The translations under genes were made by a program, and so were the position numbers. From Arthrobacter sp. V1I9 (GTDB taxonomy: Bacteria > Actinomycetota > Actinomycetes > Actinomycetales > Micrococcaceae), in contig NZ_JAUSYU010000001.1 of NCBI RefSeq assembly GCF_030817075.1, positions 248,001-312,000 on the forward strand: a stretch of 64,000 bases of DNA. The letters are read 5' to 3'. Under the pieces are notes generated by a model that was given only the letters and a program-made list of their open reading frames with translations, made no database searches and was not told where the DNA came from. The first letter of the stretch is position 1; each line of letters starts with the position of its first letter. Shown one piece after another: positions 18,165 through 32,769 of the stretch.

Positions 18165-18755
18165 TTAGAGCGTCAAGGACGCTCCCAATTTAACGTCCAG
18201 AGCGGTTGCAACCCTCTGGGCGACGTGGGAGACCGTGCCGATTCCTTCGACCTTGGTAAGGAGGCCGCGTTGGCTGTACAGGGATGTCACGGAGGTTGTT
18301 TGCTCGAAATAGAGGGCCATTCTTTCCCGTATGACCTCGGCTGTGTCGTCGGTACGGTTTTCGCTGACAGCCCGCCTGAGCAGCCTTTGGACCAATTCGT
18401 CCCTGTCAACGACGAGTTGAAGTACTACATCAAGTTTGTGACCCATGCCAGCCAGCGCCTCGTCGAGAAAGCCGACCTGAGCTGCCGTGCGAGGGTACCC
18501 GTCCAGCAAGAAACCGTCCTGCGCGTCAGGCTGATTCAGACGATCACGCACCATTTCGTTCGTGATCGTATCGGGGACGAATTTGCCTGCGTTCATGTAA
18601 GACTCTGCGGCCCGGCCGAGCGGAGACTGGCTCTTCACGTTATGCCGGAAGATATCTCCAGTCGAGATGGCGACGATTCCGTGCTTTTCGGTGATGTGCC
18701 TGGCCTGGGTGCCTTTTCCAGCGCCAGGGGGGCCTATCAGGAGCATCCTGATCAT
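18165..18755 (-). CDS. adk: Adenylate kinase (second, catabolic-cluster copy)
   Basis: The protein shows the P-loop GPPGAGKGT at residues 8-16, STGDIFRHNVKSQSPLGRAA, and GFLLDGYPRTAAQ, all canonical for adenylate kinase. At 196 residues it is the short form lacking the zinc-LID insert, usual in Actinobacteria. It converts AMP and ATP to two ADP. The ATG overlaps the upstream deacetylase stop as ATGA. The housekeeping adk normally sits beside secY/map, so this is probably an extra copy. It lies in the same operon as an AMP-forming acyl-CoA ligase, and may recycle the AMP made by that step. Confidence 0.9.
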   Translation of the reverse strand: MIRMLLIGPPGAGKGTQARHITEKHGIVAISTGDIFRHNVKSQSPLGRAAESYMNAGKFVPDTITNEMVRDRLNQPDAQDGFLLDGYPRTAAQVGFLDEALAGMGHKLDVVLQLVVDRDELVQRLLRRAVSENRTDDTAEVIRERMALYFEQTTSVTSLYSQRGLLTKVEGIGTVSHVAQRVATALDVKLGASLTL

Positions 18756-19678
18756 GGGGTTGTCCTTTCAAGATAAATGGGGGCATGACGGGCACGTTCG
18801 ATGACCGGGATGGCAGCGGCGGTAGCCTGGCCGCTGCCGTCGTCACGCCAGCAGTCGAAGAGCTCGGAGAGTGTGGGAAACCACACACCGTCGAAGGAAG
18901 ATATATGGTCGAGGAATTTCTCAAGCATGAGGAGGTTGTGCGCTCTTCCGATCGTCTGCGGGTGCAGAGTCCAGGTCATTGCGCCGCCTTGGCACCGTTC
19001 ATAGGCGAAGTTAAAACTGTCGATCCAACGCGCGAGCACCGCCTCGTTGCTTTGCATGAGGGGGCTGCCCTTAAAGGACTCCAGTTCGGGGAAGTCATCA
19101 AGAAACCAGGAAACTGGAAACTCCAGGAGCTTGCTCTCAGGGCCGAATGTGTTGCCCTTCTCCAGGCTGATATCGACGACCATACGGGGTCGATATGGCT
19201 CAAAGTCGCGACCCATCAGCGATGAATCCCAATCAAAGCCAAACTCTTCCAAGAGTTCAAGGGTGTTGTCGGTGACGTCTAGCGCGGGAGAGCGGTAGCC
19301 TCGCGGACGTTTCCCAATAAACTCTTCGTGTTGCCTGATCTGTAGTTCCAGCAGGCGCCGTTCCTCGTCCCGTTCCAATTTGGGCACATACTCGTGATAA
19401 ACGCCGTGAGCCCCTATTTCATGGCCCGACTCGACGATCGCTTCCACGGAGCGGGGGAAGGTTTGCATTGTGTGTGTAGGTACACACCACGTCGTTGTTA
19501 TTCCGTAGCGTTGAAACACCTCTAGAAGCCGCGGTGCGCCAACGACGGCACCGAACTCACCCCGTGACAGCTGAGTCTGAGAGGTCGAGCGAAACGTCCC
19601 CAGCCAGACACTTTGAGCATCAAAATCCGGGCTGAGCGAAACGGCAAGCCGTTTGCCTTCAGGTAGTTGGAGAGGCAC
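18752..19678 (-). CDS. NodB-fold polysaccharide deacetylase/imidase-like hydrolase
   Basis: The 308-residue protein has the NodB-homology metal pattern: SLSPDFDAQ (Asp at 18 and 20), SGHEIGAHGVYHE (His at 86, 91 and 95) and RPRGYRSPALDV. The last third holds FEFPVSWFLDD-like and TWTLHPQTIGR segments typical of the cyclic-imidase/PuuE allantoinase branch rather than peptidoglycan deacetylases. There is no signal peptide, so it should be cytoplasmic. In this operon, hydrolysis of a cyclic amide, imide or N-acyl group is a reasonable guess. The GTG start has only a weak ribosome site (GAAAG). Confidence 0.82.
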   Translation of the reverse strand: MPLQLPEGKRLAVSLSPDFDAQSVWLGTFRSTSQTQLSRGEFGAVVGAPRLLEVFQRYGITTTWCVPTHTMQTFPRSVEAIVESGHEIGAHGVYHEYVPKLERDEERRLLELQIRQHEEFIGKRPRGYRSPALDVTDNTLELLEEFGFDWDSSLMGRDFEPYRPRMVVDISLEKGNTFGPESKLLEFPVSWFLDDFPELESFKGSPLMQSNEAVLARWIDSFNFAYERCQGGAMTWTLHPQTIGRAHNLLMLEKFLDHISSFDGVWFPTLSELFDCWRDDGSGQATAAAIPVIERARHAPIYLERTTP

Positions 19679-19738
19679 AACAATCAGCTTTCTTTAGGCC
19701 AAATTCGGAGGTGGTCAACGATTGAGGGGCCGCGCCCC

Positions 19739-20224
19739 TTATCCTGGCCGGCGTGATAGGAGGACGACCCAGTCGCCTTCCTGGCAAACAACCCCGTTCT
19801 GGTTCAAAATCTGAACACGGGTCGTAACAATGCCCCGGTCCGGCTTGCTGCTGGATGGCCTGATGCCAATCACTTCTTCGCGAACGGTGATGGTGTCACC
19901 GATTCGTATCGGGGCGCACATTTTCCAGTTGTCGATGCCCAAGAATGCTATGGCCGACCCGTTCTTCCATCCCAAAGCCATTTCAAGCCCGAATGCAAGG
20001 GACAGGGCGCCAGGGCCGTGGAAAAGCCTGGTCCCGAATTCAGTCGTTTTCGCATACTCTTCATTTGTGTGCAACGGGTGCATGTCCCCCGACCATGTGC
20101 CGAAAGTGACGACGTCGAATTCGGTGACGGTACGGCCGGCGGAGATCCATTCTTGGCCGAGCTCAAGGTCGTCAAGATACCGGACAGCGGAAGAGCTGGT
20201 CGTGCCCAGGAGGTTGGTAGTCAA
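19739..20224 (-). CDS. MaoC-like (R)-specific enoyl-CoA hydratase
   Basis: The 161-residue hotdog protein has GTWSGDMHPLHTNEEYAKTT, the MaoC active-site segment in which an Asp and a His act on water. It is followed by RLFHGPGALSLAFGLEMAL and IRIGDTITVREEVIGIRPSS. These enzymes hydrate enoyl-CoA to 3-hydroxyacyl-CoA or dehydrate it. It is 63 bases from the neighbouring oxidase stop within the seven-gene leftward operon. A paralogue at 29622-30131 is in the divergent, rightward arm and has nearly the same active-site sequence. Confidence 0.87.
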   Translation of the reverse strand: MTTNLLGTTSSSAVRYLDDLELGQEWISAGRTVTEFDVVTFGTWSGDMHPLHTNEEYAKTTEFGTRLFHGPGALSLAFGLEMALGWKNGSAIAFLGIDNWKMCAPIRIGDTITVREEVIGIRPSSSKPDRGIVTTRVQILNQNGVVCQEGDWVVLLSRRPG

Positions 20225-20280
20225 AGCGTGCTCCAGTTCTCAAGTATTCGTTAGATGCTGTAGACGGTGAACCAGCTGGT

Positions 20281-21507
20281 TCAGTACCTGATGACCCCGT
20301 CAACGGGGGCGGCAAGGGACGGCCGGTAGAGAGACAACTCGTCGAGGGACAAGCTGGTCTGCTCGCCCGAAATTAGCTCGGCCACCAGACGTCCCGTGAT
20401 CGGCCCGGCGAGATTGCCGTAGACATGGCCTGTGGCGAGGACCAGCCCGGGAAGTTCCTCTACTTCATCAACGATTGGCAGGGAATCGGCCGTGGCAGGC
20501 ACCAGGCCGGCCCAGGCGCTCTCGATGCCGAGAGCCCTGTAGTTGGGAAAAGTACGGAGCAAGGAGTCGATCGCAAGCTTCAGCCCGGCGGCGGGCATCC
20601 TGTCATCGAGCTGGTCAGGGTAATCCATGGGGCACCCTATGAACAGATTGCCGTTTTCTGTTTTGGCCACACACTCCATGTGTTCCAGGGCGTGCGTCTG
20701 GTCCTCGGAAGGCGAGGTGAAGTATTCATCCCGATAGCTTGGAAGGTTGCGGATGTGGGCGTACTGCTTGGCCGCCAGCGGTCCGTTGAGAATCTTGTCG
20801 AGTTTCTCTTCGACGGGCGCGAGCATTACAGCTCCAAGCCTGTGTGCCTTTATGGGTACGCTAATGCCTTCCGCTTCAAGCATTGTTGACCAGATGCCCG
20901 TCGCCCACACCACTTTGTCCGCGGAGACATCGCCCCCAACTGTCCTGACACCTACGACCTTCGAACCACGTCGCAGCGGGCCAAGGACCGGTGTGTTCTC
21001 GTGGATGCGAACACCGAGTCTGCGGCATTCCTGGGCCAGGGCGCGGACGAACTTGGGCGTTCGAATTTGGCCGTCCTCCGGGCTGAAGGTGGCTCCTATG
21101 ACGTCGGGTGGCAAGATCGGTGCGGCTTCGTGAGCAGCCTGGTCGTCAAGCAGCTCCGCTTTGAATCCGTCGGCAATGCGGGCTTCGACGAATTCCTTGT
21201 AGACGCGGCGCTGGTCGTCCGTATAAAAGAACGTCATGGCGCCATTGCTTCTGTACTCGAAGGTCGGCCCGAGGATATCTGCAAAGTCGTCATAAAGAGC
21301 TCTGCCGGCGCGTGTCAGCTCCACTGCGTAGTCGCCGTGGCGATTTTGCATATGCAGGAATCCCAGGTTACGCCCAGAGGCTCCGTGGCCAAGTTCCCGC
21401 TGTTCGAGGAGCACAACGTCATGGCCTTTTGTCGCGAGGAAGTACGCCGTTGTTACGCCAACTATCCCGCCGCCTACGACCACAACTCCGGCCTTGTCGA
21501 GGTTCAT
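20281..21507 (-). CDS. FAD-dependent amine/amino-acid oxidoreductase (DAO family)
   Basis: The 408-residue protein begins AGVVVVGGGIVGVTTAYFL with the Rossmann motif at about 12-17, then ELGHGASGRNLGFLHMQNR. The C-terminal FAD contact is AWAGLVPATADSLPIVDEVE. It is a paralogue of the enzyme at 14812-16014 and shares the GASGRN segment. Expected chemistry is oxidation of an amine or N-methyl amino acid, with electrons passed to O2 or a quinone. It lies between the MaoC hydratase (downstream) and the acyl-CoA ligase (upstream) in one operon. Confidence 0.88.
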   Translation of the reverse strand: MNLDKAGVVVVGGGIVGVTTAYFLATKGHDVVLLEQRELGHGASGRNLGFLHMQNRHGDYAVELTRAGRALYDDFADILGPTFEYRSNGAMTFFYTDDQRRVYKEFVEARIADGFKAELLDDQAAHEAAPILPPDVIGATFSPEDGQIRTPKFVRALAQECRRLGVRIHENTPVLGPLRRGSKVVGVRTVGGDVSADKVVWATGIWSTMLEAEGISVPIKAHRLGAVMLAPVEEKLDKILNGPLAAKQYAHIRNLPSYRDEYFTSPSEDQTHALEHMECVAKTENGNLFIGCPMDYPDQLDDRMPAAGLKLAIDSLLRTFPNYRALGIESAWAGLVPATADSLPIVDEVEELPGLVLATGHVYGNLAGPITGRLVAELISGEQTSLSLDELSLYRPSLAAPVDGVIRY

Positions 21508-21591: not shown

Positions 21592-23133
21592 TTATGAGCT
21601 ACTTTGACGTGCTTCTGCCGACAGGAGCGCTGCCACGTCCCGCCGGCTGACCTTTCCGGTCGTCAAGTTCACTGGAAGTGCATCAACGGTGACGAACTGG
21701 CTGGGAACCTTATACGACGAGAGACGGGCGGCAGTGAACGTTTTAAGCTCGTCGTGGTCAAGGGGTGACCCTCCCTGGGCCACAATGGCAGCCACGACGC
21801 GCTGGCCGTAGATGTCATCCGGGATGCCCACGACGGCAGCTTCAGCAACAGATGGGTGTTGCTGAAGGACTCGTTCGATTTCTGCCGGAGAGATATTTGT
21901 GCCGCCGCGGATGATGACGTCGGATAGGCGGCCAACAACGTAAACGAAGCCGTTTTCGTCTACCCTTACGAGGTCTTTGGTGCGATACCAGCCATCTTCG
22001 GTAATGACGGCGCGCGTTTGTTCCTCGTCTCGCCAATATCCAAGCATCAGACCAGGGCCTGTAGAGTATGCCTCCCCAGTCTCGCCTTCCGGGACTTCCT
22101 GTCCCTGGGCGTCGAGAACCTTCAGCCTCGAGCGGGGCACCAGCTTGCCGGCGGATCCCGGTTTGGGTGTCGGGTTGGCGACCGGGTCGTACGTCACCAG
22201 CGGTAGGCATTCGGAGGCGCAGTAGGCGTCCAGGACGGGCAGCCCGGTTTGTGCTTGCCAACGACTGAAGGCGGCTTCATTTCTGGGCTCTCCACCTGAT
22301 ATGCAGAGCCGAAGTGAAGGAAACGCGGGATGGCCGGTGTTGGTCTGCTCTGCGTATTGCGCCAATTTCCCGAACGTTGCAGTGACGCCTGCCAGGAATG
22401 TGGCTGAGTGCTTCTCAATGGCTGGCGCTATCAGTTCCGGACGGGCCCTGCGGACCACCACGACAGTCCCGCCGCGCAGCAGGACGGCCAATGAGGTGCT
22501 GGCCAGCCCGTAGAGCCAGGCCATTGGTAGACAGATGATGGCCGTGTCTTCGGGGCCGAGGTGCCAAACCTCGCCGTAGGTATCCGCGCAGTTGTAAATG
22601 GCTGTTGCGGAGAGCATGATTGCCTTCGGCCGGCTTGTGGTGCCTGACGAGAAGCAGATCATGGCGAGCGGTTCGCGAAGACCCTCCGGGTTCGGCGACG
22701 CGTCATGCCGCACGGTGGTAACCCGGAAGTCAGCAATATCGACAATGGGCGCGTTACGTGCCGCGGTAGTAATCGATGCACCATCGACGCCTTCAGAGGT
22801 GACGATCAGCGCAGGGTCACTCGTATCAATGGCATATTCCAGGTCGCCGGGCCCGGAGGAAGGGTAGACGGTGACCAGGACGCCGCCGCTTCGCCATACA
22901 GCCAAAGCGGTTGCCAGGTAGTCGGCCGAGCTTTCAGCTACGAGGGCCACTCGGTAACCGGGTTTGAGTCCGGCTTTGAGCAGTATCCCGGCGCGCCGCT
23001 CGATTGACGCCTGCAGGTCCCCATAGGTGATAGTGGTATCGCCGTCGATGATGGCCGCGTGGTCGGGGTTTCGACCCGCGACCTTCTCGAGTGCTGAAAC
23101 ACAGCCCATTTGCTCGGTTGACGAGTTATTCAT
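21592..23133 (-). CDS. AMP-forming acyl-CoA synthetase/ligase
   Basis: The 513-residue protein, starting at the ATG after GGAGCGGAT, has the adenylate-forming signature. The ATP loop MICFSSGTTSRPKAIML is near residues 158-174. YSTGPGLMLGYWRD, EDGWYRTKDLVRVDENG and VYVVGRLSDVIIRGGTNISP follow, and the catalytic Lys is in LTTGKVSRRD near residue 494. It activates a carboxylic acid to acyl-CoA, releasing AMP and PPi. The acid specificity cannot be read. It heads the CoA-handling part of the leftward operon, and the downstream adenylate kinase would deal with AMP. Confidence 0.92.
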   Translation of the reverse strand: MNNSSTEQMGCVSALEKVAGRNPDHAAIIDGDTTITYGDLQASIERRAGILLKAGLKPGYRVALVAESSADYLATALAVWRSGGVLVTVYPSSGPGDLEYAIDTSDPALIVTSEGVDGASITTAARNAPIVDIADFRVTTVRHDASPNPEGLREPLAMICFSSGTTSRPKAIMLSATAIYNCADTYGEVWHLGPEDTAIICLPMAWLYGLASTSLAVLLRGGTVVVVRRARPELIAPAIEKHSATFLAGVTATFGKLAQYAEQTNTGHPAFPSLRLCISGGEPRNEAAFSRWQAQTGLPVLDAYCASECLPLVTYDPVANPTPKPGSAGKLVPRSRLKVLDAQGQEVPEGETGEAYSTGPGLMLGYWRDEEQTRAVITEDGWYRTKDLVRVDENGFVYVVGRLSDVIIRGGTNISPAEIERVLQQHPSVAEAAVVGIPDDIYGQRVVAAIVAQGGSPLDHDELKTFTAARLSSYKVPSQFVTVDALPVNLTTGKVSRRDVAALLSAEARQSSS

Positions 23134-23244
23134 ATCCGCTCCACATTGATTTTGAGGTTGGAACACGCTGTAGGCCAGCTAACCTGCCGCAGGGCATCAA
23201 CAACGTTGGGCTGGTGGGGCCTTTGAACCGGCGTGCGGTTAGTT

Positions 23245-24291
23245 TCAGACCGCAAGCCCTTTGAGGATCTTCTCCGCCTCCGAGCCCATGTTCTCTACGA
23301 TCTGGCCGGCCGGAAGAATCTCATGAACCAGCTGCATTGTCTGTCCGACCGGCATCATTCCGAAGTCCATGTCACCGTCCTGATACCCGGTCTCGACACG
23401 GGTGCCTGCGACTGCGTATTGGCCAGGGAACCCTGCCGGCTTCTTCTCGGTCGATTCCCATTCCGAGGTCCATTTGTTCTCGAAAGCGCGCATGCGCTTA
23501 CCGCTGTACGAGTAGGTAATGGTGCTGTCCTTGAAGGTACCTTCGACCACACGGTTCTTGAAGTTTTCATGGCCGTAAGCCTCGGGGCTGGCAATAAATC
23601 GGGTTCCGACCCAAACACCTGCCGCACCCAAAGCGAGAGAGGCCGCCAGCCCTCGTCCGTCGGCGATGCCTCCGGCAGCCAGAACCGGCTGATCTACAAC
23701 ATCTGCGACGGCTGGGACGAGGGTCATGGTTGATGCGTAGCCAGTGTGACCGCCAGCCTCTGTTCCCTGCGCCACAATGAAGTCAACGCCTGCGGCGCTG
23801 GCTTCCTTTGCCTTGCCCACGGAGCCGACAAGTGAGAAGACAGTTATCCCGCGGTCCTTGCATTCCTTGATGAACCAGTCGGGAGTGGCGAAGGTCAGGA
23901 CGATGGCAGCGGGTGCCGCGTCCAGGACGATCTGGACTTGGTCTGCTACGGCGCCAGGGGTCAAAAGAGCTTCCACGCCCGCCAGTTTTTCCTGATCAGC
24001 TCCGGACAGTGATCCCCACAGCTCACGCACCGGTGCCCACTGTGCTTCATCCTCAGTGGTAAGCGAATCCGGGAGCAGCAAATTAATCGCGTAGGGTTTG
24101 TCGGTGCCAGCCTGGATCTTCTTGATTTCGGCGCGGAGGTTATCAGGCATGAAGCTGACACCACCGAGGCATCCCATGCCGCCAGCGTTGCTAACGGCGG
24201 TGACAAGCTCGGCTTGTGCCACCCGGGCCATGCCTGCGGAGCAGATGGGGTACTGGAGACCGAGGGCCTCGGTCAATGCTGTCCTGATCAC
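23245..24291 (-). CDS. Nitronate monooxygenase (2-nitropropane dioxygenase) family
   Basis: I chose the GTG at 24291 (ribosome site AAAGG, 7-base spacer); a longer GTG start at 24306 lacks one. The TIM-barrel flavoprotein shows YPICSAGMARVAQAELVTAV, AVSNAGGMGCLGG and FIVAQGTEAGGHTGYAS, whose His is the catalytic residue of the class I enzymes. The later VLAAGGIADGRGLAASLALG binds FMN. The family oxidises nitronates such as propionate 3-nitronate. Members are also often annotated as enoyl-ACP reductase-like. In this operon, either detoxification of a nitro compound or an FMN redox step is possible. Confidence 0.85.
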   Translation of the reverse strand: MIRTALTEALGLQYPICSAGMARVAQAELVTAVSNAGGMGCLGGVSFMPDNLRAEIKKIQAGTDKPYAINLLLPDSLTTEDEAQWAPVRELWGSLSGADQEKLAGVEALLTPGAVADQVQIVLDAAPAAIVLTFATPDWFIKECKDRGITVFSLVGSVGKAKEASAAGVDFIVAQGTEAGGHTGYASTMTLVPAVADVVDQPVLAAGGIADGRGLAASLALGAAGVWVGTRFIASPEAYGHENFKNRVVEGTFKDSTITYSYSGKRMRAFENKWTSEWESTEKKPAGFPGQYAVAGTRVETGYQDGDMDFGMMPVGQTMQLVHEILPAGQIVENMGSEAEKILKGLAV

Positions 24292-24402
24292 TGATACACC
24301 TTTCACGTCCCGGAGTTCAGATTCTGCTTTGCTCCGGCTGTTTATGTTGTCCCGCGTTGGGGCCTGGTTGATGGTTTTTTAGCCCGACGTAGCCCGGCAG
24401 GT

Positions 24403-25182
24403 TTAGGTGGCGTTCCAGCCGCCATCGACCTGAATGGTCTGACCGTTGACATAGCTGGCGGCGTCGGAAGCGAGGAAGAGGACGACACTCGCGACTTCTG
24501 ATGGTTCACCTGACCGTTTTGCGGGGATGAGGAAGTCCATGATTTCGGGCGAAACGCCAATGCCGCGTTGCTGGGTCGAGACGAGATCGCCCAGGATTTC
24601 CTCCGACGTCGCGCGGAGGTTGGTTTTGATAACGCCGGGAGCGACGACGTTGGCGGTCACGCCGTGTGGGGCAACATCGATGGCAAGCCGCCGGGTCAGG
24701 CCTTCCAGGCCGGCCTTGGAGGCGACATACGAGATTCCGTCTGCCGCGCCCCGCTGGCCTGCGACTGAACCAATAGTGATGATGCGACCGGAGTTCTGCT
24801 TTGTCATCACCTGTGCAGCGGCGCGGCAGCCGTAAAAGGCTCCTGTCAGGTTGACCCCGATGATCTTGGCCCATAGCTCCGGGGTCGTTTCAAGCACGTC
24901 GGCGTATCCGTCAAATACACCTGCGCTGTTAACAAAGACGTCCAGCTTCCCGGTCTTGTCCACGACCTCGTCTACGAGTGCGGATACCGATTGGTAATCA
25001 CTGACGTCCACAACCCTTGTGTGAAGTGACTCCGGAGAGCCGAGTTCGCTGCGGGTCTCTGCGAGGCGTTCCTCTGAGAGGTCGCTGGCATAGACCTCAT
25101 ACCCTGCTTCGACAAATGCCTGGGCAATGCCTCGGCCGATACCCGATCCGGATCCTGTGATAATTACGCTTTTGCTTCCCAT
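24403..25182 (-). CDS. Short-chain dehydrogenase/reductase (SDR)
   Basis: A classical 259-residue SDR: the cofactor motif TGSGSGIGRGIAQA at about 8-21, NSAGVF near residue 85, and the catalytic GSVAGQRGAADGISYVASKA with Ser, Tyr and Lys. The C-terminus QTIQVDGGWNAT is typical of FabG-type enzymes. It should interconvert a 3-hydroxyacyl-CoA or similar alcohol with its ketone using NAD(P)H. The weak upstream site leaves the start uncertain: TTG at 25191 is possible. It is the first gene of the leftward operon and diverges from the FAD/Fe-S dehydrogenase. Confidence 0.9.
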   Translation of the reverse strand: MGSKSVIITGSGSGIGRGIAQAFVEAGYEVYASDLSEERLAETRSELGSPESLHTRVVDVSDYQSVSALVDEVVDKTGKLDVFVNSAGVFDGYADVLETTPELWAKIIGVNLTGAFYGCRAAAQVMTKQNSGRIITIGSVAGQRGAADGISYVASKAGLEGLTRRLAIDVAPHGVTANVVAPGVIKTNLRATSEEILGDLVSTQQRGIGVSPEIMDFLIPAKRSGEPSEVASVVLFLASDAASYVNGQTIQVDGGWNAT

Positions 25183-25191
25183 GCCATTCAA

Positions 25192-25561: not shown

Positions 25562-28453
25562 ATGAGCTCAGACATCACCGAAGCGCTTGTTCGTGATCTT
25601 AAAGGCGCTGGCATAGAGGTGGACAGCAGTAGTCGGCGACGGACGGAGTACTCGTTTGATGCCTCCAACTACCGTGTCCGGCCACAAGCAGTCGCCTTTC
25701 CCCGCAGCAGCCACGACGTCAGATCGATTATTCGAGTTTGCCGGCTGCACGGATGCCCTGTGACAAGTCGGGGTGGTGGGACCAGCATGGCGGGCAACGC
25801 CATCGGAACTGGCCTCGTCATGGATTTTTCCCGTTACATGAACCGCTTGCTGGAATTGGACCTGGAGTCACGGACTGTCACGGTTGAACCTGGGATCATC
25901 CTGACTACCCTGCAAAAGGAAATACAAGCAGCAACAGGTGGGACCTATACCTTCGCTCCCGACCCGTCATCGATGGGGCGCGTAACTGTGGCAGGGGCGA
26001 TAGGCAACGATGCATGCGGCAACCACTCGGTCAGGGACGGCAGGACCGCCGACCATATCGTTTCAGTAGACCTGGTGACGGCATCGGGTCACCTGGTGAC
26101 TGCTGAAGCAGGCGGAGTCAGGGCCCTCGATCCCTCGGACGCCGAGTCAGCGGCCGAGGCCGCTCGCATCCAGGAAGGACTGAAGCATCTTGCTGACTCC
26201 AACCTCGCCGTTTTCAGGACTGAGTTCGGTCGACTTGCACGGCAAGTTTCCGGATACCAGTTGGCGAACCTCCTCCCTGAGAACGGGTTCGACACGGCCA
26301 AGGCTCTGGCCGGCAGCGAAGGTACCTGCGCCGTCATTGTCTCTGCCACCGTCAAGTTGGCAAAGGTCGCACCCTCCGCGCTTCTCGTTTGCCTGGGCTA
26401 TCCCGACGTCGTTGCCGCAGCGTCAGATGTACCCGAGATTCTGCGTTTTAATCCTGCAGCCGTTGAAGGTATCGATGATGCCATCGTCCAGACAGTCCGC
26501 CATCGCCGGGGGGACGCGGCAGTCGGGGCCCTGCCAAAGGGCAATGCCTACCTGTATGTCGACCTGGATGGTGAAAACCCTGAAGACGTTCGTCGGCAGG
26601 CGGAGAATCTTCTTCAAAGCTTGGCTGAGCGCGGAAATCTCCTGGAGGGATTGGCCGTACCCGATCCGAGTGACCGGGCGAACCTGTGGCGTGTAAGGGA
26701 AGACGGTGCGGGTCTGTCATCCCGGCTGGCTGACGGCGAGCAGTCATGGGCCGGGTGGGAGGACGCAGCAGTTTCTCCCGAAAATCTTGCGGCCTATCTT
26801 TCGGACTTCACTGCCTTGCTGGAAGAACATCAACTTCGCGGCGTTATGTACGGGCACTTCGGAGCAGGCTGCACTCATGTACGAATAACCTTTGACCCAC
26901 GAAGCGCGTCGGGCCGGGATGTCATGGAACGGTTTCTCCGGGAGGCCGCGGCTTTGGTAAGCCGCCACGGCGGCTCCCTTTCCGGTGAACATGGGGATGG
27001 CAGGGCCCGTTCCGAACTCCTTCCGATTATGTATAGCCCTGCAGCAATCACAGCCTTTACTCACTACAAGGCCATCTGGGATCCGCACGAACTTCTAAAC
27101 CCAGGAATCATCACCAAACCCGCCCCAATCATGTCCGATCTCGCTCTTGCTGGCGCCCCTGCACGCGGTTTCCGGACTTCCTTTGCCCTCGAGCCGACGT
27201 TGAAAGGCCGGGAAGGGTTTCCGGACGCCGTTCAATCCTGTATCGGGGTTGGACGATGCCGCACTACGGCTGGAGCGGGAGTTATGTGTCCCAGCTACCG
27301 GGCCACTCGGGACGAAAAAGACTCAACCAGGGCCCGAGCCCGTGTGCTGCAGGAAATGGTCATGGGGTCCAGAACGGCGCAGGAGGGGTGGAAATCAAAA
27401 GACGTTCGAGAGTCCTTGGACCTCTGCCTTTCCTGCAAGGCATGTTCAAGTGACTGTCCTGCAGGAGTCGACATGGCTTCGTATAAATCCGAGTTCTTCC
27501 ACCACTTCTACCAGAGGCGTCTGCGTCCCCTGTCGCACTACAGCCTGGGTTGGCTGCCGACGTGGCTGAAGGTCACCGGCCGCATCGCCCCATTGATCAA
27601 CATGACCCTTCGCAGCCCTCTTGCTGGGGTTATCGCCCGTGCCGCAGGAATTACAACGAAACGCAAGATGCCTGACTTCGCGTCCCGTGGCCAGCTTGAA
27701 AGGGAAATCGGCACCGCCCGGCCAACTGATGCGGACACGGTACTCTTCGTTGACAGTTTCACCCGCGGCTTCCGGCCCGCAGTTGCGGGTGCAGCGAAAC
27801 GGGTACTCGAGGACGCCCAGAAATCGGTTGAGTGCAGCGCGGACCAGTGCTGCGGCTTGACCTGGATCTCAACAGGTCAATTGGATACCGCCCGGAAGCT
27901 CCTAAGGAAGACCGCCGCAGCCCTGGATGACGGTACGGATCGTCCAATTGTCGTCATCGAGCCCAGCTGCGCAGCAGCACTGCGAAAAGACCTGCCTGAG
28001 CTCGTGCCAACAGAGTCCGCCCGCCGCGTTGCAAGTCGAATCCAGAACTTTGCGGGCGCGGTCCTGGAACAGGCAAACGCAGGCTGGCGTCCCCAGACCA
28101 TCCCCACCGCAGTAACTGTTCAAACTCATTGCCACGAATACGCCACCTTTGGCTCGGCATCACAAACTTCTGCGCTGGCTGCTCTAGGAGTGAGCAGTAT
28201 CAACCAAGCCACCGGATGCTGCGGCGTTGCTGGAAACTTCGGTTTCGAACACCAGCACTTTGACGTCAGCATGGCAGTGGCCGAACAGTCGCTGGTTCCC
28301 GCGCTACGGGAGACGTCGGAAGGGACTCCAATCCTGACGGACGGATTCAGCTGCCACATGCAGGTCCGGCAAATCTTGGAAAACCACACAGACCAGGCGT
28401 CAAGGCATCTGGCTGAAATCATCGATCCGGGACCTGCACATCATCGGCAGTAG
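25562..28453 (+). CDS. YdiJ-like FAD/4Fe-4S dehydrogenase (D-2-hydroxyacid type)
   Basis: This 963-residue fusion has a vanillyl-alcohol-oxidase-type FAD domain (TSRGGGTSMAGNAIGTG at about 68-84, and PDPSSMGRVTVAGAIGNDAC). A C-terminal GlpC-like part has two 4Fe-4S motifs: CIGVGRCRTTAGAGVMCPSY from about residue 560 and CLSCKACSSDCPAGVDMAS from about residue 622. Two cysteine-rich CCG segments (SADQCCGLTWIS and ATGCCGVAGNFGFEH) complete the typical architecture. E. coli YdiJ of the same layout oxidises D-2-hydroxyglutarate. Related proteins take D-lactate or glycolate. A 2-hydroxy acid from this cluster is the likely substrate. A hairpin at 28510 follows, so it may be a separate transcript from the lyase genes. 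Confidence 0.9.
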   Translation: MSSDITEALVRDLKGAGIEVDSSSRRRTEYSFDASNYRVRPQAVAFPRSSHDVRSIIRVCRLHGCPVTSRGGGTSMAGNAIGTGLVMDFSRYMNRLLELDLESRTVTVEPGIILTTLQKEIQAATGGTYTFAPDPSSMGRVTVAGAIGNDACGNHSVRDGRTADHIVSVDLVTASGHLVTAEAGGVRALDPSDAESAAEAARIQEGLKHLADSNLAVFRTEFGRLARQVSGYQLANLLPENGFDTAKALAGSEGTCAVIVSATVKLAKVAPSALLVCLGYPDVVAAASDVPEILRFNPAAVEGIDDAIVQTVRHRRGDAAVGALPKGNAYLYVDLDGENPEDVRRQAENLLQSLAERGNLLEGLAVPDPSDRANLWRVREDGAGLSSRLADGEQSWAGWEDAAVSPENLAAYLSDFTALLEEHQLRGVMYGHFGAGCTHVRITFDPRSASGRDVMERFLREAAALVSRHGGSLSGEHGDGRARSELLPIMYSPAAITAFTHYKAIWDPHELLNPGIITKPAPIMSDLALAGAPARGFRTSFALEPTLKGREGFPDAVQSCIGVGRCRTTAGAGVMCPSYRATRDEKDSTRARARVLQEMVMGSRTAQEGWKSKDVRESLDLCLSCKACSSDCPAGVDMASYKSEFFHHFYQRRLRPLSHYSLGWLPTWLKVTGRIAPLINMTLRSPLAGVIARAAGITTKRKMPDFASRGQLEREIGTARPTDADTVLFVDSFTRGFRPAVAGAAKRVLEDAQKSVECSADQCCGLTWISTGQLDTARKLLRKTAAALDDGTDRPIVVIEPSCAAALRKDLPELVPTESARRVASRIQNFAGAVLEQANAGWRPQTIPTAVTVQTHCHEYATFGSASQTSALAALGVSSINQATGCCGVAGNFGFEHQHFDVSMAVAEQSLVPALRETSEGTPILTDGFSCHMQVRQILENHTDQASRHLAEIIDPGPAHHRQ

Positions 28454-28760: not shown

Positions 28761-29603
28761 TTGGAAGCGGAAATCGCGGAGCAATCAACGGACTATTGGT
28801 CATCGGCTGTCAGCCAAGTCACCGATACCAAGGTGTACGTGCGTGGGTACGACCTTGAAGATCTCATTGGGCAAATCCCATTTACTGCAGCCATATTCCT
28901 GCTGATTCGCGGTCGCGTTCCCACCCCGCACGAGGTGCGGTGTTTGGACGCTGTGCTCAGCGGCGTACTGGACTACGCCCTTGAAAAGCCAGGAACACTG
29001 GCTGCCCGGTTTGCCGTCTCCGCCAATCCCAGTATGGCTATCGGCATGTCCGCTGCCTGCTTGTCTGTCGGTAAGCACACGCTTTCGACCGAAGAGACGG
29101 GCCGCTTCATCCTTGCGACTCATGCCGAGTACCGAAGCTCGGGGCTGCCGCTGGAAGAATTCGCGGATGCAAAGGTGAGCGCGATGCGGCAGATAAAGGA
29201 GAGGATCCCCGGTCTCGGTCATCCGGTCTTCAAGAAGATTGACCCCCGTGGCGAACGTCTTAAAGAAATAGCAGTGAAGGAGGGAGTCTGGGGAGAACCG
29301 GCTGAAGTGTACGAGGCCGTTCACAGGGCCTTCACTGAACTCCCAGGCAAGTCAGACATTCCGATCAACGATGTGGGGGTCATGGCAGCGATACTGCTTG
29401 GGTTGGGCTTCACGCCAGAAGAGGGCACGGGCATAGCTGTACTCTCCACACTTCCCGGAGTCATCGCCCACGTATCCGAAGAACTTTCCGCCGGTAAGCC
29501 AATCCGCATTGTTCCGCGTGACGCTGCGCGCTATAACGGCGTCACAGACAGAGACTTTAATGCGGATCGAGCCAAAGCCGGCTGGAAATCACCTTCCACC
29601 TAG
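28761..29603 (+). CDS. Citrate-synthase-fold lyase (citryl-CoA lyase-like)
   Basis: The 280-residue protein is shorter than citrate synthase (about 380-430) but keeps the catalytic core. SVGKHTLSTEE holds a His (about 106) at the position of the first catalytic His. PGLGHPVFKKIDPR at 150-163 is the second His motif (His 154). PINDVGVMAAIL holds an Asp near the third. Family members of this size are annotated as citryl-CoA lyases. They cleave a 3-hydroxy-3-carboxyacyl-CoA to acetyl-CoA plus a keto acid. A TTG start follows GGGAGA. A MaoC hydratase gene is 18 bases downstream, so hydration followed by cleavage is a natural order. Confidence 0.8.
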   Translation: MEAEIAEQSTDYWSSAVSQVTDTKVYVRGYDLEDLIGQIPFTAAIFLLIRGRVPTPHEVRCLDAVLSGVLDYALEKPGTLAARFAVSANPSMAIGMSAACLSVGKHTLSTEETGRFILATHAEYRSSGLPLEEFADAKVSAMRQIKERIPGLGHPVFKKIDPRGERLKEIAVKEGVWGEPAEVYEAVHRAFTELPGKSDIPINDVGVMAAILLGLGFTPEEGTGIAVLSTLPGVIAHVSEELSAGKPIRIVPRDAARYNGVTDRDFNADRAKAGWKSPST

Positions 29604-29621: not shown

Positions 29622-30131
29622 ATGATGGCCCCCTCGATAGACAATCGTCTTATCCCGTCGGCAACCAGGTTCCTCGAGGACCTGGAAATTGGTGATTCCT
29701 GGCTTTCGCAAGGCCGCACCATCACCGAAACGGATCTTGTCACCTTCGCCACCTGGTCAGGTGACATGCACCCTTTGCATACCAACGAGGAATATGCCAA
29801 AGCAACCGAATTCGGTGGACGGATATTTCACGGCCCCGGCGCCTTAGCCATCGCCTTTGGCTTGGAAATGGCCGTCGGTTGGAAAGAACAATCCGCTATA
29901 GCTTTCCTCGGCATCCAGGACTGGAAGCTGGCTGCACCCGTCCGGGTCGGGGACACTATCTCAGTGCGGGAAGAAGTAACGGAGCTCCGACCCTCGGCAA
30001 CCAAGGCGGATCGCGGCATCGTCAGAACCAAAGTTGAGGTGCTCAATCAACGAGGCGAGACTTGTCAGAGCGGCTTTTGGGTGGTCCTCTTGTACCGGTC
30101 ATCCGCGCATGCCCCCAGCGGCACAGCGTAG
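29622..30131 (+). CDS. MaoC-like enoyl-CoA hydratase (second copy)
   Basis: The 169-residue hotdog protein carries ATWSGDMHPLHTNEEYAKAT, RIFHGPGALAIAFGLEMAVG and VRVGDTISVREEVTELRPSA. It aligns with the paralogue at 19739-20224 along its full length with most residues identical in the active-site region. The start ATG follows GAAAGGAGCC, only 18 bases after the lyase stop. Together with the lyase it could hydrate and split a branched enoyl-CoA, as in itaconyl-CoA metabolism, where a MaoC hydratase and a lyase act in sequence. The specific substrate is not known. Confidence 0.87.
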   Translation: MMAPSIDNRLIPSATRFLEDLEIGDSWLSQGRTITETDLVTFATWSGDMHPLHTNEEYAKATEFGGRIFHGPGALAIAFGLEMAVGWKEQSAIAFLGIQDWKLAAPVRVGDTISVREEVTELRPSATKADRGIVRTKVEVLNQRGETCQSGFWVVLLYRSSAHAPSGTA

Positions 30132-30171
30132 GCCGCGTCGGATGGTGAGTAGCCGAGTCACCCCGGAGACC

Positions 30172-31182
30172 ATGGTCGCCTTCCCCCTTTTAGCATTCGG
30201 TGGCAGTGAAGTTCTCCACGCGCGTTCTCGAGATGTCCCGGTCCCAGGATGGGGCCAAGTCCTTGTGAAAGTAGAAGCGTGCGGCGTTTGCGGCCAGGAC
30301 ATCATGAGAAGAAGCGGCAAGGTCGATCGCGTCCTTGGGACGACCATCGGACATGAAATTGCCGGCACAGTCGCCGTCACTGGCCCCGGCCTGACCAAAC
30401 TCGGAGTTGGGGACCGGGTTGCCTCGACACAACGCCGGTCCTGTCATCGATGCCGGGACTGCTTAGGTGGACGGGAAGTTCTCTGTATGGAGGGGCTCCT
30501 CTACGGAGAGGGCTTGGATGGTGGTTACGCCGAGTACTGCCTTATGGATGAACTCAGCCTTGCCCACATCCCTGATGAAGTTTCCTCTGAAGCTGCCGCC
30601 ATTGCTGCATGCGCGATTGGGACCGGATATCATGCGCTGACTCTCGCTGGCGTAAAACCAGGGCAGCGCGTGCTGGTAACAGGGGCGAGCGGGGGAATCG
30701 GCATACATGCCTTACAGCTGGCCCGCAGTATGGGAGCTGAGGTTGTGGCGGTCACGTCTAGTGAGCGAAAAGTCGATCGGCTGCGGTTGTATGCCGACGA
30801 GGTTATCGTTGCTGCGGGAGGAAGGTTCGACAGCGAGGTTCGACAACGAAATATCCAACCTGACATTGTTCTTGAGATGACTGCCTACGCAACCCTGGAC
30901 AGCAGTCTCCGCTCTGTCCGGCGTGGTGGCACTGTCGCCGTTGTTGGGAATTTAGAAAACAAGGCAGTCGGGATTTTGCCGGGGGCGCTGATCCTCCGAG
31001 AGATACGCCTCATAGGCTCAAAGGCGTGCAGCCTTGCCGAACTGGAGGATTGCCTGCGATTCCTACAACGCAACATGGTGCAGGCTGAGATACAGGAAAT
31101 CCTGTCTTTGGATTCCGCTCCGGCCGCCCATGACCTTCTCGAATCCGGCGGCGTTTACGGCAGAGTCGTGCTGAAACCGTGA
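30172..31182 (+). CDS. Zinc-dependent alcohol dehydrogenase (MDR family)
   Basis: The start is set at the ATG with CGGAGA just upstream, giving 336 residues; the open frame upstream overlaps the MaoC gene and lacks a ribosome site. ACGVCGQDIMRR holds the catalytic Zn Cys, TTIGHEIAG the His-Glu pair. CHRCRDCLGGREVLC supplies four structural-zinc cysteines, and TGASGGIGIHALQLAR is the cofactor fold. Expected function is NAD(P)-linked alcohol oxidation or 3-hydroxyacyl interconversion. It continues the rightward catabolic string after the second MaoC gene. Confidence 0.88.
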   Translation: MVAFPLLAFGGSEVLHARSRDVPVPGWGQVLVKVEACGVCGQDIMRRSGKVDRVLGTTIGHEIAGTVAVTGPGLTKLGVGDRVASTQRRSCHRCRDCLGGREVLCMEGLLYGEGLDGGYAEYCLMDELSLAHIPDEVSSEAAAIAACAIGTGYHALTLAGVKPGQRVLVTGASGGIGIHALQLARSMGAEVVAVTSSERKVDRLRLYADEVIVAAGGRFDSEVRQRNIQPDIVLEMTAYATLDSSLRSVRRGGTVAVVGNLENKAVGILPGALILREIRLIGSKACSLAELEDCLRFLQRNMVQAEIQEILSLDSAPAAHDLLESGGVYGRVVLKP

Positions 31183-31226
31183 GACCCAAACCACGCAAGT
31201 TGACCAGCCTCAGGAAAGGGGCAAGA

Positions 31227-31922
31227 GTGACACGGGTACCCCAAGCACAGCCAGGACCTTTGGTTAGTCCGCGCCTTGCGGTGAGCGTCGTTCTGCTTAG
31301 GGACTCACCGGCTGGACTCGAAGTGTTTGTTCAGCATAGGGCCTCGACCATGGATTTTGCTGCCGACGTCATCGCATTTCCCGGGGGGCGGGTTGACGAG
31401 ATTGACTCCTCACACCTGCAATTCAGCGCTTCCCTGCTGGAGGCGCACGTTGATGCTTGGAAGCGCACCAGCATTGGAGAGAACTTGTCTCAGGCACGGC
31501 GTGAGGCTGGCCGGCTGATTGCTGCAGCGACCCGGGAGGTGTCGGAGGAGTGCAACATAGCCTTAGACCCAGAGGCGCTTAGACCATGGGCTAACTGGAT
31601 AACGCCGGAAGGTTCGCCGAAACGATTTGATACTTACTTTTTTGTCAGTGCGGTGATGCCGGGCGTGGAACCGCGTCACGCTACTACTGAGGCATCGCAA
31701 TCGCAGTGGTCGCCGGTACAGGAACTCCTGGACGGGGAAAGTGCCGGGAATCTCAGGTTTTTGCCGCCTACGCTTGCCATCTTGGATGACCTCCTTAACC
31801 TCGCTGCTACAGAGCAGGTATTCGTATGTCAGCGAACGATTGAACCCGTACGTCTACGTCCTGATGGTTTAGAAGATTTTTTTCGGGCTCGCCGTGCCAG
31901 AAAAAACAGCGCCGAGGCCTAG
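31227..31922 (+). CDS. Nudix hydrolase, possible acyl-CoA/CoA diphosphatase type
   Basis: I chose the GTG at 31227 because AGGAAAGG precedes it at ideal spacing; a longer GTG start at 31179 overlaps the dehydrogenase stop. The Nudix box is visible: FPGGRVDEID and, after an insertion, AATREVSEECNIALDP, with the required Arg-Glu and Glu-Glu positions. The length, about 231 residues, and the long gap between the GG and RE parts fit the RNF/CoA-type Nudix enzymes (NUDT7/19-like). It may trim CoA or acyl-CoA esters, controlling CoA pools in this pathway. Confidence 0.82.
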   Translation: MTRVPQAQPGPLVSPRLAVSVVLLRDSPAGLEVFVQHRASTMDFAADVIAFPGGRVDEIDSSHLQFSASLLEAHVDAWKRTSIGENLSQARREAGRLIAAATREVSEECNIALDPEALRPWANWITPEGSPKRFDTYFFVSAVMPGVEPRHATTEASQSQWSPVQELLDGESAGNLRFLPPTLAILDDLLNLAATEQVFVCQRTIEPVRLRPDGLEDFFRARRARKNSAEA

Positions 31923-31953
31923 CATCAGTCAGAACAATTGAAAGGGAATTTGC

Positions 31954-32769
31954 GTGAGCGGTACTAACTTGGCCTTCGAAACCTCTGATGGAGTGACACT
32001 CCGCTACGACGATGAGGGCGAAGGGCGCCCGGTTGTCTTCTCCTCCGGCTTCCAAGCGCAAAGCGCACACTTCGTGTGGCAGCGCGATGCTCTGGTGCAA
32101 GCTGGATACCGTGTGATCAGATATGACCACAGGTGCCACGGGCGCTCTGACCTCCCGGAGCACGGACAGAGGATGAGCCGCCTCGCTCTGGATCTCGGCG
32201 AGCTGTTGACCGCCTTGGACCTCCGTGACGTTGTTCTCGTCGGTCACTCGATGGGAGCGAATGTCAGCCTGGCTCACTTTTCCATCGCCACTAATCCCTG
32301 GGAGCGCACAACGGCATTCGTCGCAGTTGACCAGTCCCCGAAGATCGTCAACGGCGAGGACTGGCAATGGGGTCTCCGTGGCATCACGGAGCAAAACGTC
32401 TTCGATGCGGCCCATTTTCGGTTCGAATGGTTCGATAATGCCCGTGAACCGGCTATGCCCGACTTCGTGAAAGAGTTGGTCGATTCGATCGAGCCCTCTT
32501 GGGAGACGTTCCCGTTCGACAAGGCACGCCGCCTGCTCATCGATCACATGGTCTCCGATTGGCGCGACGTCGTGCCGCGGATCGCGGTCCCGACACTGGT
32601 CATCACCGGCCGGCATACCCCGTTCTACGAGCTTGAGGGAATGCGCTGGTTTGCCGACACTGTGCCCGACGGCCGCCTAAGTGTATTTGAGCACAGCGGC
32701 CACGACCCCTACCTGAACGAATATCCTGAGTTCAACGCTCAACTCCTGGAGTTCATCGCGCAGCACTGA
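31954..32769 (+). CDS. Alpha/beta-fold hydrolase
   Basis: A GTG start with GAAAGGGAATTTGC. The 271-residue protein has the nucleophile elbow VLVGHSMGANVSL and the C-terminal catalytic His in EHSGHDPYLNEY. RYDHRCHGRSDLP is the oxyanion-hole loop. The usual acidic residue after the sixth strand is not an Asp in the expected GxxD spot: the segment reads VITGRHTPFYELEG, so the acid is either one of the Glu residues or elsewhere. Possible roles are lactone, ester or acyl-CoA hydrolysis. It ends the rightward catabolic string and converges on the MFS gene. Confidence 0.87.
   Translation: MSGTNLAFETSDGVTLRYDDEGEGRPVVFSSGFQAQSAHFVWQRDALVQAGYRVIRYDHRCHGRSDLPEHGQRMSRLALDLGELLTALDLRDVVLVGHSMGANVSLAHFSIATNPWERTTAFVAVDQSPKIVNGEDWQWGLRGITEQNVFDAAHFRFEWFDNAREPAMPDFVKELVDSIEPSWETFPFDKARRLLIDHMVSDWRDVVPRIAVPTLVITGRHTPFYELEGMRWFADTVPDGRLSVFEHSGHDPYLNEYPEFNAQLLEFIAQH

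Follow-up and report, generated by a model that had tools for sequence, protein, structure and literature searches.

A recurrent gene island of Arthrobacter sp. V1I9 as a candidate catabolic route for a saturated N-heterocyclic amino-alcohol

In fungal nicotinate catabolism, as described in an excerpt of PMC9304392, the HxnM/HxnN module joins a polysaccharide-deacetylase-fold hydrolase proposed for a cyclic imide to an amidase for the resulting half-amide, and 3qbu is named there as the nearest structural homologue of HxnM, a cyclic imidase. Citryl-CoA lyase of the 6hxp type shares with the lyase described below the citrate-synthase fold, the size, the conserved second His, and the DPR Arg. 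Genes for relatives of both enzymes are found together in Arthrobacter sp. V1I9, in a window (the whole stretch of 64,000 nucleotides analyzed, to which all coordinates refer) where they may form part of a catabolic island that spreads horizontally and would break down a saturated N-heterocyclic amino-alcohol, often encountered as its N-oxide, a reading that we hold at about even chances.

The original prediction had described a divergent thirteen-gene set at 18165..32769 as a route that acts on a nitrogenous acid through CoA and includes amine oxidation and the opening of a ring or amide. The thirteen genes are all present there as open frames, seven leftward and six rightward, with family support from Pfam and NCBIfam models (for some at the superfamily level only), and the outline of the route, for a nitrogenous compound, is supported. 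The limits were wrong. The catabolic island exceeds the box, as relatives keep genes from ~4.2 kb to ~59.5 kb (Table 1), and the amidase, thioesterase, second amine oxidase, PucR regulator, GMC–aldehyde dehydrogenase–MDR set, S/N-oxide reductase, and importers are conserved outside it. The zinc ADH and Nudix genes, found in Arthrobacter loci only, are passengers within the box, as probably is the alpha/beta hydrolase gene, which is at no conserved position. GC content is 0.56–0.63 from 4 kb onward and 0.61–0.65 in the flanks.

Table 1. Genes of the island and its surroundings in the window (bit scores are given against model cut-offs)
Feature	Coordinates	Strand	Support
ProP-like MFS importer (glycine betaine/proline type)	4248..5780	-	ProP model 378 vs 544
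BisC-family molybdenum S/N-oxide reductase	6299..8590	-	TIGR00509 947.4 vs 1017.55
APC amino acid/amine permease	9377..10837	+	Pfam; 52-54% in Nocardioides and Pedococcus islands
Small EutQ-like cupin protein	12637..13035	-	PF06249 40.8 bits; 50-78% in 6 fetched stretches
4HBT acyl-CoA thioesterase	13063..13512	-	Pfam; TIGR00051 70.4 vs 68.7; 10/45 loci (clustering)
CN hydrolase (nitrilase superfamily), proposed half-amidase	13512..14474	-	PF00795
DAO2, FAD amine oxidase	14812..16014	-	PF01266; 14/46 loci (tblastn)
PucR-type regulator	16371..18044	+	PF13556; 17/46 loci (tblastn)
Adenylate kinase, proposed AMP recycling for ligase	18165..18755	-	Model support
NodB-fold hydrolase, proposed cyclic imide hydrolase	18752..19678	-	3qbu 5.7e-52; 34/45 loci
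MaoC1 hydratase	19739..20224	-	Pfam/NCBIfam; MaoC in 30/45 loci
DAO1, FAD amine oxidase	20281..21507	-	PF01266; DAO in 33/45 loci
Acyl-CoA ligase (AMP-forming)	21592..23166	-	Pfam/NCBIfam; 33/45 loci
NMO/FabK-like FMN enzyme	23245..24306	-	Pfam/NCBIfam; 28/45 loci
SDR dehydrogenase	24403..25191	-	Pfam/NCBIfam; 38/45 loci
YdiJ-like FAD/Fe-S 2-hydroxyacid dehydrogenase	25562..28453	+	Pfam/NCBIfam; 7/45 loci
Citrate-synthase-fold lyase with altered active site	28761..29603	+	NCBIfam, profile, residues; bait of locus scan
MaoC2 hydratase, MaoC1 paralogue	29622..30131	+	Pfam/NCBIfam
Zinc ADH	30034..31182	+	Family match; poorly conserved among relatives
Nudix protein	31179..31922	+	PF00293 36.1 bits; in Arthrobacter loci only
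Alpha/beta hydrolase, probably passenger	31954..32769	+	Family match; not conserved
MDR oxidoreductase	35007..36170	-	51-92% in 11 fetched stretches
Aldehyde dehydrogenase (aminobutyraldehyde/betaine-aldehyde type)	36189..37676	-	NF010000 611.8 vs 615
GMC oxidoreductase, choline-dehydrogenase-like	37996..39678	+	NF002550 739.5 vs 605
OpuAC-type ABC importer (two binding proteins, permease, ATPase)	42938..49043	+	Pfam
Second APC permease	53998..55440	+	Pfam; 85% in Brevibacterium island
SBP_bac_3-type ABC importer	56464..59450	+	Pfam; binding protein 59% in Planosporangium L049/L081

The zinc ADH coordinates are those of the first ATG/GTG/TTG frame, which overlaps MaoC2, and the true start is probably later. 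DAO1 and DAO2 are 38% identical, and the MaoC1 and MaoC2 genes share 72% of their DNA over 266 bases. For the protein first called a nitronate monooxygenase, FabK is the nearest model (243.8 against a cut-off of 453.1), and the YdiJ-like protein scores 455.8 bits on the YdiJ model against 1350. Relatives of the adenylate kinase occur in five Arthrobacter loci (65–69%) and on three Rhizobium plasmids (39–42%), and those of the ProP-like importer in L036, L037, and L046 (32–34%) and in L079 (65%). The amidase partner and the S/N-oxide reductase, the most informative parts, were absent from the original prediction.

A scan baited with the lyase returned 42 loci from Actinobacteria and from alpha-, beta-, and gammaproteobacteria, 41 of them at 47–80% identity and one at 31%. 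Synteny, the check proposed with the original prediction, was seen: both arms remain together in relatives, and their separation did not occur. Gene content was mapped in 45 loci, the window included, after exclusion of L067 (31% identity) and replacement of L038 and L054 by the longer L014/L015 and L016/L017 from the same contigs. The counts, taken locus by locus inside the fetched flanks with close relatives included (five Arthrobacter; L059/L060), come from a simple ORF caller and clustering that splits families by subclade: lyase 45, SDR 38, NodB 34, ligase 33, DAO 33, MaoC 30, NMO 28, ETF 17, RidA 16, CN hydrolase 15, acyl-CoA dehydrogenase 14, AS amidase 13, and TartDH 6, with carboxylesterase also in 6 loci. 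The Asp/Glu racemase count of 13 loci excludes another seven-locus cluster, whose one scored member is of the same family. In the host family, strong lyase matches were found in the own genome and two others (52–54% identity) and weak ones in four (33–35%) among 395 genomes, the NodB protein in 4 of 390 genomes, own genome counted, and BisC in 2 of 390. For this set, recurrence across phyla together with rarity in the host family goes beyond chance. A megablast of the 14.6-kb region against plasmids found nothing beyond 1% matches in two Rhodococcus plasmids, and protein searches were therefore used. The similarity matrices of NodB, ligase, SDR, MaoC, and NMO track that of the lyase (r 0.52–0.78, with 0 of 2000 permutations as high; near-duplicates L027–L030 and L060 left out), a pattern that shared descent would also produce. 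As the original prediction held, no described pathway with this set was found in the open-access literature, which is weak evidence of absence because subscription papers lay mostly outside the search.

The NodB-fold protein finds its best solved relative in 3qbu (5.7e-52), with the allantoinase PuuE (3cl6) at 1.1e-12. Its PDFD, GHEIGAHGVYHE, and TLHP motifs align with VDID, GHEVGAHGYSHE, and TIHP of 3qbu, and Asp12, Asp14, and His247 of 3qbu, named in an excerpt of PMC3084791, would fall on these motifs in our own alignment. According to that excerpt, the 3qbu protein showed no activity toward allantoin or the tested peptidoglycan components, a result that concerns those substrates. An HxnM-like role as a cyclic imide hydrolase is proposed for the NodB-type protein. 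Allantoin or purine use, entertained because of the PucR regulator and the PuuE-like fold, was set aside, as the protein falls far under the cut-off of the PuuE model (77 against 424.6). Within the fetched flanks, an amidase lies near the NodB gene in 26 of the 34 loci that have one: a CN hydrolase only in 13, an AS amidase only in 13, both in none, and neither in 8. These unrelated enzymes substitute for each other beside the NodB gene. A search for farther-out CN hydrolases, which, like that for aldehyde dehydrogenase, took in 15 loci, found one on the lyase contig for six of the eight, namely the five Arthrobacter loci (83–84%) and L055 (34%); none was found farther out for L042 and L065 in this search, which covered CN hydrolase only. 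NodB is absent in 11 of the 45 loci.

The lyase scores above the citryl-CoA lyase subfamily model (NF004869, 271.2 against a cut-off of 212) and matches 6hxp by profile at 1.9e-53; it differs from that enzyme in its active site. At the position of the first-motif His (..IDHG.. in 6hxp), which we take to be catalytic by analogy with citrate synthase, Tyr is found in 43 of 45 loci and Phe in 2, and all 8 usable controls have His (L009 excluded). The citrate-binding Arg (..GRVPG..) is replaced by Thr in all 45, with Arg in 7 of the 8 controls and Val in L088. In place of the NVDG Asp, an acid precedes that position by one residue (Asp in 36 loci, Glu in 9), and at least three controls also lack NVDG. 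These residues suggest another substrate for this "citryl-CoA lyase" clade, and citryl-CoA cleavage was set aside despite the NCBIfam label. Because His and Arg are replaced, the retro-Claisen release of acetyl-CoA that had been predicted is doubtful as a citryl-CoA-type step, although the NCBIfam subfamily model continues to assign the protein to citryl-CoA lyase; C–C cleavage by the lyase itself is put forward conditionally, since the clade lacks the citrate-synthase residues.

After import of the substrate, BisC could convert the N-oxide to the tertiary amine, the GMC oxidoreductase and aldehyde dehydrogenase could take a primary alcohol to the acid, and an amine oxidase with the SDR may turn the ring carbon beside nitrogen into a lactam carbonyl. 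The ligase would then form the CoA thioester, with adenylate kinase clearing AMP, and a 2,3-double bond may be introduced by an acyl-CoA dehydrogenase or another flavoenzyme, followed by MaoC-catalyzed addition of water onto the N-bearing carbon. Next, the lyase would cut a C–C bond to leave a cyclic imide, a thioesterase would release the acid, the NodB-type hydrolase would open the imide, and the amidase would convert the half-amide to a dicarboxylate plus an amine; in Rhizobium the amine could pass onward through GABA transaminase and succinate-semialdehyde dehydrogenase (SSADH). Acyl-CoA dehydrogenase, described earlier as absent, is indeed missing among the window genes examined, and the counterparts of the cluster type in the host genome are remote (25–30% identity), but it is present in 14 of the 45 related loci. 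Its absence from the window and an NMO/FabK-like enzyme that takes no step in the scheme count against the reading. In the comparison with fatty-acid beta-oxidation, thiolase was found neither among the window proteins examined nor among the named gene clusters of relatives (not all clusters are named). Monocyclic acids could pass through the same chemistry, for example pyrrolidine- or piperidine-2-acetate derived from alkaloids of the hygrine, tropane, or pelletierine type, with the lyase giving acetyl-CoA and succinimide or glutarimide and the imidase and half-amidase giving a dicarboxylate and ammonia or methylamine. This alternative, which accounts for the ligase, acyl-CoA dehydrogenase, MaoC, lyase, NodB, amidase, DAO, and SDR and fits an acetyl-CoA-releasing fold, leaves the thioesterase, GABA transaminase, and GMC–aldehyde dehydrogenase set unneeded and has no transport or esterase clue of its own; we consider it unlikely.

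BisC (1e-50 or better) was found in 20 of 38 genomes or plasmids and is missing in the other 18; in 16 of the 20 it shares a contig with the lyase and lies no more than 40 kb away (neighborhood searches took 35 of the 42 scan loci, without L033, L038, L039, L047, L052, L054, and L067). On the TorA model TIGR02164 the window protein scores 639.6 against 1465. OpuAC-type importer genes also adjoin BisC in Nocardioides and Brevibacterium. The aldehyde dehydrogenase has relatives in five Arthrobacter (89–92%) and in Leucobacter and Brevibacterium genomes (80–83%), and the GMC oxidoreductase in two Arthrobacter (91%), Leucobacter (84%), and Pedococcus (72%). Choline-to-betaine catabolism shares with the island a choline-dehydrogenase-like GMC enzyme, an aldehyde dehydrogenase, betaine-type importers, and a sarcosine-oxidase-like DAO. 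Accordingly, several neighboring systems (choline or trimethylamine N-oxide use, an imide system, and a CoA lyase system) might merely share one island, as the placement of the GMC enzyme within the choline dehydrogenase subfamily, the importers, and the fact that not all modules are in every locus would allow. However, the equivalog cut-offs of betA (691.6 against 732.1) and betaine-aldehyde dehydrogenase (442.1 against 668.6) are missed, choline catabolism leaves over the ligase, MaoC, lyase, and NodB, and the modules are found together again on Rhizobium plasmids and across genera that are not related; we rate this explanation as quite unlikely.

For the single catabolic route, pyrrolizidine alkaloids and their necine bases are the favored, unproven candidate substrates because of their ester, N-oxide, primary alcohol, and two C4 halves leading to GABA and succinate (malate if 7-hydroxylated). 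A dedicated mobile pathway could degrade pyrrolizidine N-oxides fully, with the N-oxide reduced, the necine CH2OH oxidized to an acid that is loaded onto CoA, the lyase breaking an N-acyl carbinolamine in place of citryl-CoA, and the N-substituted succinimide yielding GABA and succinate or malate; this version is tentative and on balance rather improbable. Clover, lentil, and Mimosa, to our knowledge, are not classical pyrrolizidine plants, which counts against these substrates, and the open-access literature offered no characterized gene reference for pyrrolizidine alkaloid catabolism. Also against them, two pyrrolizidine N-oxides withstood biological removal in filter sand according to an excerpt of PMC8556162. 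Patchy NodB, BisC, carboxylesterase, and TartDH speak against the proposed route as a whole, as does the finding of GABA transaminase and SSADH in the fetched flanks of three Rhizobium plasmids only. On one Rhizobium plasmid, the two enzymes score 849 against 724 and 714.2 against 646.35 on C4 models, which conflicts with quinolizidine amino-alcohols of the lupinine type, for which the same steps would give C5 halves (5-aminovalerate and glutarate); the primary alcohol and N-oxide agree with lupinine and the names of several carriers mark them as legume symbionts, but no glutarate pathway genes are among the named families, and we rate this as very unlikely. Least probable, with only a slender chance, is elimination of the amine from a beta-amino-acyl-CoA by a hot-dog-fold enzyme (MaoC/4HBT), with no imide and NodB acting on an unrelated amide, since the NodB–amidase pairing would be left unexplained, although hot-dog-fold beta-amino-acyl-CoA ammonia-lyases exist and each locus has two to three MaoC/4HBT genes. 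Spermidine-derived lactams, heme-derived maleimides, and isonicotinate were set aside by reasoning.

Rarely carried and shared by distantly related bacteria of soil and roots, this large block seems to encode an apparently undescribed route by which a ring-nitrogen compound, perhaps a plant alkaloid, would be loaded onto coenzyme A and broken down to ordinary nutrients, a catabolic pathway without a known assignment in Actinobacteria and three classes of Proteobacteria. It marks a "citryl-CoA lyase" clade whose residues hint at a different substrate and suggests that a large protein group labeled polysaccharide or peptidoglycan deacetylase may hydrolyze cyclic imides or amides. If a plant alkaloid is the substrate, the island would provide genes and strains for clearing food, feed, and water of toxins and would explain why conjugative Rhizobium plasmids bear the set.

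Among known systems, nicotine catabolism in Arthrobacter shares an N-heterocycle, amine oxidases, and a GABA-type end product, and it is not known to involve a CoA ligase, a MaoC, an imidase, or a lyase of the citrate-synthase fold. Itaconate degradation (CoA transfer, RipB/Ich, and lyase) shares CoA activation, MaoC hydration, and a C–C lyase, the last of another fold; the amine and imide genes of the island are extra to it, and it was set aside because the two MaoC proteins score 56.8 and 51.4 on the RipB/Ich model against 340. In comparison with the HxnM/HxnN module, as far as the excerpt of PMC9304392 describes it, the NodB-type hydrolase of the island sits in a CoA-dependent cluster with a ligase, hydratases, and a C–C lyase, and its proposed half-amidase partner is of the nitrilase type in the window and of the AS type in other loci.

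All 13 genes of the original prediction are open reading frames of the families assigned to them, as judged by family model scores, and their two arms stay together in relatives. The gene order of both arms around the citrate-synthase-fold lyase is kept in the closest Arthrobacter; these loci differ from the window in that YdiJ lies behind the Nudix gene and the ADH is absent. The genome is a single contig of 4.05 Mb, of which the window covers bases 248001–312000, and no tRNA genes were found in the window. The first 2 kb of the window have a GC content of 0.67, compared with 0.56–0.63 from 4 kb on and 0.61–0.65 in the 20 kb on each side, a profile that suits an acquired block without proving one. 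A set of genes between two importers of the window (Table) is probably a separate sugar-use set.

A scan with six lyase sequences yielded 42 loci, in actinobacterial genera including Arthrobacter, Nocardioides, Pedococcus, Brevibacterium, Leucobacter, Microbacterium, Planosporangium and Planktophila, and in other genera including Rhizobium, Ensifer, Mesorhizobium, Shinella, Ancylobacter, Paraburkholderia, Ralstonia and Pseudomonas. Plasmid searches added three conjugative Rhizobium plasmids that share much of the gene set. A map of 45 loci combined the window and these plasmids with 41 loci from the scan, with family names of clusters taken from scored members. The core consists of the lyase (45), SDR (38), NodB-type hydrolase (34), CoA ligase (33), FAD amine oxidase (33), MaoC (30) and nitronate-monooxygenase-like protein (28), followed by ETF (17), RidA (16), CN hydrolase (15), acyl-CoA dehydrogenase (ACAD, 14), AS amidase (13), Asp/Glu racemase family (13), 4HBT (10), YdiJ (7), AminoOx (7) and TartDH (6). 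The similarity matrices of five families correlate with that of the lyase (r 0.52–0.78, 23–33 loci, none of 2000 permutations as high), a correlation that includes a contribution from the shared ancestry of the genomes. In the host family, the lyase was detected at 1e-30 in seven of 395 genomes including its own, with two of the others at 52–54% identity (taken to be Arthrobacter mobilis E918 and Rothia santali AR01) and four at 33–35%. The NodB-type protein and the BisC-type reductase were found in four and two of 390 host-family genomes, respectively, including their own, and neither these nor the lyase appeared in any of the 20 same-genus genomes among those listed per search.

The lyase was compared with eight controls, namely 6hxp and seven homologues (four plasmid-borne and annotated as citryl-CoA lyase, three genomic), at positions whose catalytic and citrate-binding roles we assume from citrate synthase. 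The catalytic His, present in all controls, is replaced by Tyr in 43 and Phe in two of the 45 lyases, and the citrate-binding Arg, kept in seven of eight controls, is Thr in all 45. The acid of the NVDG motif is shifted one residue earlier in the clade, and the second His and the Arg of DPR are kept in all 45. These altered residues suggest that the product is probably not oxaloacetate. Release of acetyl-CoA, as originally predicted, is thus not assured; on the other hand, an NCBIfam subfamily model identifies the lyase as citryl-CoA lyase above its cut-off, which counts against this reading.

Based on gene content, a possible route was proposed in which an acid bearing a ring nitrogen on its beta carbon would be activated by the ligase, desaturated, hydrated by MaoC and cleaved by the lyase. 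Hydration at the nitrogen-bearing beta carbon would give a carbinolamine, or a carbinolamide if the amine oxidase and SDR first form a lactam; C–C cleavage by the putative lyase could then leave a lactam or cyclic imide, which the NodB-type hydrolase and subsequently an amidase may split into amine and dicarboxylic acid. Starting from pyrrolizidine-1-carboxylate, the halves would be GABA and succinate. GABA transaminase and succinate-semialdehyde dehydrogenase are annotated on the Rhizobium plasmids NZLR1, Mim1 and WSM2304, and the NZLR1 pair was also scored. The tartrate/D-malate-type dehydrogenase of six loci (one scored, above cut-off) would fit a 7-hydroxylated base, and carboxylesterases in six loci (one scored) could cleave ester alkaloids. 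Two points count against the route: the ACADs of the Arthrobacter sp. V1I9 genome share only 25–30% identity with the cluster-type ACAD, and the nitronate-monooxygenase/FabK-like enzyme fits none of the steps clearly. The whole mechanism, substrate included, is a proposal, and its rivals each keep part of the evidence. No such pathway came up in searches of an open-access literature library. OYE-like flavoproteins also occur near the core (Table); the one at locus L016 scored under the cut-offs of the bilirubin reductase and mycofactocin OYE models, and these proteins may possibly be N-demethylases.

An outer module comprises BisC, a molybdenum S/N-oxide reductase, with an MDR oxidoreductase, an aldehyde dehydrogenase (ALDH) and a choline-dehydrogenase-like GMC oxidoreductase, in this order in Arthrobacter sp. 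ISL-65. The ALDH is 89–92% identical in five Arthrobacter relatives and shares the lyase contig in four. BisC accompanies members of this group in Nocardioides astragali, Pedococcus and Brevibacterium (with an OpuAC importer in two of the three), and ALDH, BisC, a GlcD-like oxidase, MDR and GMC are adjacent in Rhizobium Mim1, with a thioesterase and adenylate kinase nearby. BisC was detected at 1e-100 in 17 of 35 genomes, and also on all three plasmids, lying within 40 kb of the lyase on one contig in 13 of the 17 and in every plasmid. It is on another contig in the other four: two Arthrobacter drafts whose island reaches the contig end, a very fragmented Leucobacter MAG, and locus L051. Since BisC is rare in the host family, its presence in the island by chance is unlikely, and this suggests that the natural substrate can come as an N-oxide (or S-oxide); however, its lack in 18 of 38 genomes and plasmids counts against the proposed route. 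According to an excerpt of PMC8556162, N-oxide forms of pyrrolizidine alkaloids are more often detected in the environment, and two pyrrolizidine N-oxides underwent no biological removal by filter sand.

In the fetched flanks of the 34 NodB loci, a CN hydrolase occurs in 13, an AS amidase in 13, both in none and neither in eight; for these eight, a CN hydrolase was also sought further out, the AS amidase counts being those of the flanks. Five of the eight are Arthrobacter whose lyase contig does carry a CN hydrolase (83–84% identity) at a greater distance; in L055 the one detected is 34% identical, and none was found at 1e-20 in the genomes of L042 and L065. The interchange of unrelated nitrilase-type and AS-type amidases beside one NodB-type hydrolase argues for two successive C–N hydrolyses. 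Absence of NodB from 11 of 45 loci counts against the route. NodB-type genes were also seen elsewhere (Table). The hosts of L024, L021 and L022 are Salmonella, Agrobacterium and Paracoccus, and these stretches gave no match to the ligase, MaoC or lyase; the Agrobacterium locus carries additional hydantoinases, glnT and an FMN glutamate synthase, and the Paracoccus NodB-type frame, unannotated, matched as two pieces.

Coordinates of features in the window and in fetched loci
Locus	Source	Position	Feature
Window	Arthrobacter sp. V1I9	49306–53604	GH3 glycosidase, MFS transporter, LacI-type regulator
L016		2759–4951	OYE-like flavoprotein, 710–730 aa
L044		12156–14288	OYE-like flavoprotein, 710–730 aa
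L062		2209–4365	OYE-like flavoprotein, 710–730 aa
L031	Actinobacterial	5297–5896	CoxG-like protein, ~200 aa, adjoining amine oxidase gene
L032	Actinobacterial	6969–7613	As L031
L034	Actinobacterial	6475–7074	As L031
L024		13075–14915	NodB-type (46–50% to the window's) adjoining CN hydrolase; nearby FAD oxidoreductase, cupin, aldehyde or succinate-semialdehyde dehydrogenase
L021		13027–14918	As L024
L022		13100–14832	As L024
L023	Rhizobium WSM2304 plasmid	11449–17343	Second NodB-type gene (51%) adjoining Rieske protein, PDR/VanB reductase, enoyl-CoA hydratase, AMP-binding protein
L020	pYJND-2 (Paenarthrobacter sp. YJN-D)	11104–15693	Nitrilase-related hydrolase, NodB-type (~40%), primary-amine oxidase; adjoining conjugation genes

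Among proteins of solved structure, 3qbu is the best match to the NodB-type protein. The named entries in the best 120 of 1024 NodB-type relatives (1e-30) are deacetylases of some kind, none an imidase, and in an excerpt of PMC3084791 the 3qbu protein is reported to show no activity on the peptidoglycan components tested, nor on allantoin. HxnM, the cyclic imidase of Aspergillus, is described in part of PMC9304392 as 64% identical to a P. putida imide hydrolase homologue and as resembling 3qbu, with the amidase HxnN acting next.
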